From NCBI GenBank assembly GCA_030622125.1, contig JAUXGM010000026.1, forward strand, positions 1 to 19,060: 19,060 nucleotides of DNA, read 5' to 3'. Positions within the stretch are counted from its first letter, which is position 1. Each line of letters begins with the position of its first letter. Position numbers and translations under genes: made by a program. This document shows positions 51 to 18,276 of this stretch, one piece after another. The stretch is from a bacterium. Its GTDB lineage: Bacteria > AUK180. Below the pieces are notes generated by a model. That model ran no database searches and was not told the DNA's origin. It saw only the letters and a list, made by a program, of their open reading frames with translations.

Positions 51-148
51 GTAGAAGATTGAAATTCTCATCTTCTACCTTTTAATTCATTTACTTTTTT
101 AAAGATGAAATTATATTTCATCTTTAACCTCAATTTTTCTGATTGAGG
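51..148. other. Run of three hairpins upstream of ABC exporter
   Basis: Three inverted repeats lie nearly end to end. 51-59 pairs with 70-78 (9 bp, GTAGAAGAT/ATCTTCTAC). 99-111 pairs with 115-127 (13 bp, 3-nt loop). 128-134 pairs with 142-148 (7 bp, CCTCAAT/ATTGAGG). All three stems are perfect and have unrelated sequences, and the second and third touch, so they could stack. A weaker 6-bp hairpin follows at 149-163. I do not recognise an RNA family, and no stem is followed directly by a clean T-run, so they do not look like ordinary terminators. The pairing is seen in the sequence; whether it acts as RNA or as DNA is unknown. Confidence 0.6.
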
Positions 149-193
149 AATAAAAAATTTATTTAAAACAGAAAAATATTTGAGATTAATCTT

Positions 194-322
194 TAAATTT
201 TCAGTTATGTAATGAAATTTCGTTATTCTAAATCTTTTTAATGATTAGAAAATTAATTTTCTACTTTAAAAAAAAGATTTAATGAAAAGTGATTTAGTAA
301 AATCACTTAAACTGAAAATTTA
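194..322. other. Predicted four-way-junction fold (possible structured RNA)
   Basis: An outer stem pairs 194-206 with 310-322 (13 bp). It encloses three arms with very short linkers: 210-225 (near-palindrome with one G-T pair); 229-239 with 271-281 (11 bp), itself holding an 18-nt perfect palindrome at 246-263; and 287-295 with 300-308 (9 bp, 4-nt loop). Linkers are 3, 3, 5 and 1 nt. Together this is a cloverleaf-like junction covering almost every base. AT-richness makes chance stems commoner, but a nested set this complete is unusual. It is not a tRNA (no T-loop or anticodon arm). It ends about 80 nt before the exporter promoter. Confidence 0.55.
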
Positions 323-335
323 GATGTCTTAAAAA

Positions 336-390
336 TCCGTGTAATCCGTCAAATCCGTGGTTAAAAAAATCTTATTTCGCAAAAAACTAC
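336..390 (+). repeat. Dispersed repeat, copy 1
   Basis: The segment carries CCGTG/CCGTC-type repeats and then a part (348-390) that recurs at 13200-13242 with 38 of 43 bases the same. It ends 11 nt before the -35 box of the exporter promoter. Its core TATTTCGCAAAAA (373-385) is also shared with 3915-3927. A related CGTGTAATTTG-type sequence is at 15550-15595, again just upstream of a promoter. Confidence 0.7.
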
Positions 391-13175: not shown

Positions 13176-13204
13176 ATTTTATACTATAACACTTAAAAAG
13201 TCAA
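13176..13204 (-). promoter_or_regulatory. Promoter of mrp-helicase unit
   Basis: On the minus strand: TTGACT (13204-13199), a 17-nt spacer and TAAAAT (13181-13176). Transcription start is expected near 13169, which leaves a leader of about 17 nt holding the GGAG site. The -35 box overlaps the left edge of dispersed repeat copy 2. Confidence 0.7.
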
Positions 13205-13242
13205 ATCTGTGATTAAAAAAATCTTATTTTGCAAAAAGCTAA
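13200..13242 (+). repeat. Dispersed repeat, copy 2
   Basis: 38 of 43 bases match 348-390 in the same orientation. It lies between two divergent promoters: its left edge forms part of the mrp -35, and its right edge is 13 nt before the -35 of the plus-strand promoter. The core TATTTTGCAAAAA is at 13225-13237. Confidence 0.7.
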
Positions 13243-18142: not shown

Positions 18143-18157
18143 AATCCGGGACACACC
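18143..18157 (-). repeat. TGTGTCCCGG repeat, inverted copy of window start
   Basis: On the minus strand this reads GGTGTGTCCCGGATT. The window start (about 28-41) has the same sequence with two differences, and there TGTGTCCC occurs twice 13 nt apart. A dispersed repeat at both ends of the window. Confidence 0.45.
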
Positions 18158-18161
18158 AATA

Positions 18162-18197
18162 GAAGTAAGAAGTGAAGAAGTGGGAAGTGACGAAGTA
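18162..18197 (+). repeat. GAAGT-type imperfect repeat
   Basis: Five or so imperfect GAAGT units. The first 19 nt (18163-18181) are an inverted copy of 15370-15388. Confidence 0.55.
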
Positions 18198-18210
18198 GAA
18201 ACAAATCAAT

Positions 18211-18242
18211 AACTCGGAACTCGCAACTCGGGACTCGCAACT
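18211..18242 (+). repeat. Tandem 14-nt repeat
   Basis: AACTCGGAACTCGC, then AACTCGGGACTCGC, then AACT. Each unit is itself two 7-mers. Directly follows the GAAGT-type repeat. Confidence 0.7.
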
Positions 18243-18276
18243 ATTTGAGGTAATGTCCCTTTTTTAATAGGTTTTG

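Follow-up and report, generated by a model that had tools for sequence, protein, structure and literature searches.

The window, i.e., the whole stretch of 19,060 nucleotides analysed here, corresponds to contig C25 of the host genome (G000) and begins with a series of inverted repeats located upstream of an ABC-transporter gene, which starts at position 430. No open reading frame of at least 60 amino acids occurs before this position. The features distinguished in the window are the following:

1-44, no strand assigned: piece of another repeat family, REP-like, of the GGGACA...TGTCCC type, interrupting the left arm of the window copy
51-78, no strand assigned: hairpin module A, a 9-bp stem (arms 51-59/70-78)
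99-127, no strand assigned: hairpin module B, a 13-bp stem (arms 99-111/115-127)
128-148, no strand assigned: hairpin module C, a 7-bp stem (arms 128-134/142-148)
195-321, no strand assigned: four-way core, a 12-bp outer inverted repeat (195-206/310-321) closing three arms
334-364, forward strand: right terminal repeat, AATCCGTGT AATCCGTCA AATCCGTGG TTAA, made of three 9-bp units, which in complete copies matches the left end in inverted orientation
365-389, forward strand: conserved right flank of the AAAAAATCTTATTTCGCAAAAAACTA type, beyond which the copies diverge, usually with a gene start close downstream
13200-13241, forward strand: decayed right end standing alone with its flank in an intergenic position (90% identity to 348-389)

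Another type of repeat, GGGACAC...ATGTCCC, surrounds 8-bp tandem repeats (AAGTGAAG..., AACTCGGAACTCGCA) at positions 18149-18260, and belongs to the same GGGACA type as the piece found at 1-44.

The three hairpins of 9, 13 and 7 bp announced in a preliminary description of this DNA are all present in the sequence and recovered by the fold prediction, and the outer stem closing three arms was confirmed as well. Calculated with RNA parameters, the minimum free energy of positions 40-330 amounts to -77.6 kcal/mol, compared to -42.8 +/- 4.3 in dinucleotide shuffles (z -8.1); with DNA parameters the corresponding values are -52.8 and -25.5 +/- 3.4 (z -8.1), and with either set none of the 200 shuffles reaches the native energy. 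The assertion that no known RNA family is involved also holds, no family of Rfam 15 being matched at its gathering score in the window, which contains no rRNA either. What the preliminary description had overlooked is that the entire region consists of a dispersed repeat, the element extending to about position 389.

A search of the host genome with positions 40-420 of the window returned 87 matches distributed over dozens of places, many of which are found at contig ends because repeats break assemblies. The host contains 61 termini of the three-unit type (0 for a control pattern) and 19 distinct places with the four-way core. In complete copies, the left end TTAACCACAGATTAGACRGATTNNACAGATT and its inverted partner, the right end AATCCGTNTAATCCGTNNAATCCGTGGTTAA, each consist of the 9-bp unit ACRGATTNN repeated three times, the general form of the terminus being TTAACCAC(A/G)GATTnnAC(A/G)GATTnnAC(A/G)GATT. 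Both ends are present in loci L022, L024, L026, L027, L038 and L039; compact paired copies measure 231-401 bp, and a copy with nested inserts on contig C160 reaches about 680 bp. The window copy displays the right end only, since its left terminal repeat falls outside the contig. The repeat found at 1-44 also occurs in C160 (L021) and C128 (L056), where it separates the hairpin array from the left end TTAACCACAGATT, and, because positions 1-89 of the window are identical to the last 89 bases of C128, this contig may continue into the window contig and thus hold the left end. It is almost certain that the region belongs to a dispersed repeat of mobile type.

Modules A, B and C recur in five host loci (L027, L030, L038, L041 and L043), and the composition of the copies varies. 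Every module is present in L027 (401 bp), the four-way core is missing from L038, with a junction at a TGAAAA repeat, and the hairpin array is missing from L022, L024, L026 and L039. Between the same outer arms, the 127-bp core occurs in the orientation of the window in L021-L026, L028 and L029, and in the flipped orientation in L027, L031, L039 and L040. The palindromes would be responsible for both kinds of change, slippage between short direct repeats leading to the loss of modules, and recombination at the inverted repeat of the core to its flipping. The element is dispersed, modular, palindromic and non-coding.

With respect to the neighbouring genes, right ends face a gene start in 23 cases versus 6 (p 0.002), and left ends show no bias (11 versus 12). 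Right ends followed by a AAATCTTATTT flank, e.g., in L022, L024, L027, L040 and L055, are followed by a gene that begins no more than about 130 bp away, and a TTGAC/TATAAT-like promoter is often present there. No clear target-site duplication was found in complete copies, whose flanks are themselves repetitive, and the same-family genomes offered no empty site for a copy of the window type, nor any shared synteny.

The preliminary description had proposed a structured RNA as one reading, and the strong predicted fold, together with the orientation of right ends toward gene starts (23 to 6), would suit a 5' UTR element or a small RNA with selection acting on the RNA fold. Conservation of the core was examined in nine host sequences and three sequences from G002, a genome of the same family belonging to another genus. 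Standard pairs occupy 95% of the pair cells, and six core pairs are changed on both sides, a number that no shuffle attains, slid versions giving 0-4; the palindromes therefore persist. Although these compensating changes exceed all shuffles, they were set aside as proof of an RNA because they also arise in DNA when one arm of a palindrome is corrected from the other. A search of relatives with a covariance model detected the core in only 2 of the 60 searched; among the genomes covered, it is confined to the host and one same-family genome (a further core match, in L089 from isolate AUK180, is identical to G002:C260 and evidently comes from the same genome). Moreover, the covariance model is matched by both strands, the core is seen in both orientations, modules are freely gained and lost, and DNA parameters yield the same z as RNA parameters. 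These observations weaken the RNA reading to the point that we regard it as very unlikely. As for the cruciform also envisaged in the preliminary description, such a structure may form, but no sign of a cruciform function was detected.

The REP-like repeats nested in the element, as well as the four Y1 transposase genes encoded by the host, point to another possibility, that of a REP-like element moved by host transposases of the RAYT type. The long three-unit inverted ends, however, do not correspond to the REP layout and no terminus of the element occurs within 1.5 kb of the four Y1 genes, which makes this route highly improbable.

The three-unit terminus is not confined to the host. Exact scans identified it in Bacteroidota, Planctomycetota, Verrucomicrobiota, WOR-3, Latescibacterota, Treponema, Chloroflexota, Acidobacteriota, proteobacteria, methanogenic archaea and others, as well as in ten viral contigs; none was found in E. 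coli. Many of these cross-phylum termini form inverted pairs located 58-200 bp apart, with unrelated cores between them. Tandem copies of the terminus, closely spaced at about 44 bp, are numerous on contigs of Prevotellaceae and Bacteroidales (L109, L116). Among related phages, one orthologous gene junction harbours an element in L238 that is absent in L239-L242, the two junction genes abutting in L240, and a solo end present in phage L243 is absent in the related L244. Elements bounded in this way are thus gained or lost.

The variable presence of solo ends in these phages (L243 vs L244) and the nesting of elements in each other (L021 and L274, an AAAG-unit element lying within a GATT-unit element on G177:C78 in the latter) could also result from homing, gene conversion or stand-alone insertion of the ends, instead of transposition of whole elements. 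Nucleases of the PD-(D/E)XK fold, to which the GxxExxY proteins discussed below belong, include homing enzymes. Homing, however, requires flanking homology, yet the elements sit between unrelated genes in many phyla, and this explanation appears unlikely.

A gene family often accompanies such ends, that of the GxxExxY proteins (TIGR04256, PF13366), which are uncharacterised PD-(D/E)XK nucleases with RecB/Cas4-like motifs. The 15 proteins aligned all keep D63, E73, K75, Q87 and Y91, a nuclease-type set of residues, and a sequence search of the PDB for relatives of GxxExxY gave no significant match. In Solimonas marina (L156), ends of this kind enclose exactly one gene, GxxExxY, the element lying between what we take to be sufB and sufC, two genes separated by 9 bp in E. 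coli. A GxxExxY gene also lies between GATT-type unit ends in L281 and L289, the L281 element being flanked by genes that are presumably leuC and leuD, and an apparently broken GxxExxY-like reading frame lies inside such ends in L095. Elements located within operons, between co-directional genes, are exemplified by L178 (ABC export permease/ATPase), L156 and L281. On either side of the single GxxExxY gene of the host are units of a sister type, CCGCAGAGACGCAGAG, forming ends of the CCGCAGAG type, unlike the GATT-type ends of the window element, and no GxxExxY gene was found inside a copy of the window's own subtype.

Flanking inverted repeats, mostly of 8-9-bp period, occur at 25 of 30 GxxExxY loci, compared to 2/27 outer windows and 2/30 ParE toxin loci used as controls, the remaining 5 GxxExxY loci showing no clear inverted repeat. 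The GATT terminus was detected in 24 of 290 genomes, 23 of which encode GxxExxY versus 71/290 overall (p 8e-15), an association to which the abundance of such elements in certain lineages may contribute in part, since GxxExxY co-occurs across genomes with the four-helix IVP genes; among IVP-bearing genomes, the terminus is found in 16 of the 36 with GxxExxY and in none of the 36 without. No GxxExxY gene was confirmed in the viral contigs, though the ends are present there. Plasmids yielded seven diverged matches to GxxExxY along with a small number of termini.

The IVP genes offer a parallel. The host possesses three genes of the four-helix 23S rRNA IVP family:

C32:2989-3303, host IVP gene
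C82:10197-10514, host IVP gene
C184:7447-7761, host IVP gene

Inverted repeats flank 24 of the 30 IVP loci (L208-L237), mostly as tandem units of 7-bp period, and they differ in unit period from the GxxExxY loci (p 8e-7). In a published intervening sequence of Coxiella, the S23p gene is preceded by three heptamers in tandem (PMC4990558), and the 7-bp units of the IVP loci match these heptamers.

Taken as a whole, the element most probably represents a mobile non-coding, MITE-like member of this end class. The suggestion of a mobile-element end, made in the preliminary description, is supported as to the mobile element, but the region corresponds to nearly a whole element and not merely to an end. 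Short (less than about 600 bp), non-coding, provided with inverted ends and dispersed in many copies, the element possesses the descriptive features of a MITE. Its ends of tandem 8-9-bp units resemble those of the GxxExxY elements but enclose neither an ORF nor a GxxExxY gene, and it is therefore at most a non-autonomous relative of the GxxExxY-bearing elements. With regard to an autonomous partner, the ends are common to the GxxExxY elements, and GxxExxY is not a known transposase. The element could alternatively derive, as a MITE, from an ordinary insertion sequence of the DDE type that has lost its full-length copy or has it missing from the assembly, GxxExxY then being a passenger. MITEs of this kind are usually small and carry terminal inverted repeats, and the assembly breaks at many copies; in the cross-phylum loci that were read, however, GxxExxY was recognised between paired ends and a transposase was not, and an end consisting of three 9-bp units in tandem is not usual for insertion sequences. 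This second origin is accordingly considered doubtful, if less so than the homing route.

Within the preferred reading, that of a MITE-like member of the GxxExxY end class, GxxExxY may be the mobiliser of the element, a proposal we advance with some reserve. We infer that the element moves. The unit arrays would be recognised by GxxExxY proteins, which would nick the element or cut it out and assist its copying into intergenic DNA; short elements whose ends are compatible, such as the window copy, would thereby move in trans, and the palindromes would serve as cargo or else aid the extrusion and copying of the element. More tentatively, GxxExxY proteins may be the mobility enzymes of small cross-domain elements with inverted arrays of 8-9-bp units and IVP/S23p proteins those of a sister class with 7-bp units, the hairpin array then belonging to the first class as a non-autonomous element. 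The unusual ends, which often surround a nuclease gene, suggest a mode of DNA mobility that has not been described.

The link of the 8-9-bp ends to GxxExxY and of the 7-bp ends to IVP gives two common but uncharacterised families a function that can be tested. The IVP/S23p reading, if true, would also account for the spread of the 23S rRNA intervening sequences, and a nuclease moving the element would represent a mobility mechanism operating without a recognised transposase. Repeats of the AACCACAGATT / ACCGCAGAGACGCAGAG type are found between genes in many phyla; in the open-licence literature, neither these repeats nor the elements described here were found to be reported.

Three known systems lend themselves to comparison. 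Like the REP/RAYT repeats (PMC3733652), the window element is palindromic and intergenic, and for both a mobiliser has been proposed that acts in trans, but it is larger, does not consist of a tagged palindrome of 20-40 bp, and has no Y1 gene near its ends. The 23S rRNA intervening sequences with S23p/IVP, e.g., in Coxiella (PMC4990558), are similarly small, with terminal inverted repeats, one small gene or none, and short tandem units next to the gene; they differ in their 7-bp units and four-helix IVP gene, whereas the window element is intergenic, lies outside rRNA, and has ends of a class associated with GxxExxY. Finally, the bacterial MITEs such as Correia/NEMIS, ERIC/RU-1 and CIR (PMC2229807) share with the window element a small size, a non-coding and intergenic character, multiple copies, inverted terminal repeats, and transcripts that would fold strongly. 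In contrast to these MITEs, the window element has no known transposase and no clear TA target duplication, its ends are made of three tandem 9-bp units, its interior is composed of separate palindromic modules and an invertible four-way core, and its end type is distributed across phyla and common to GxxExxY genes.
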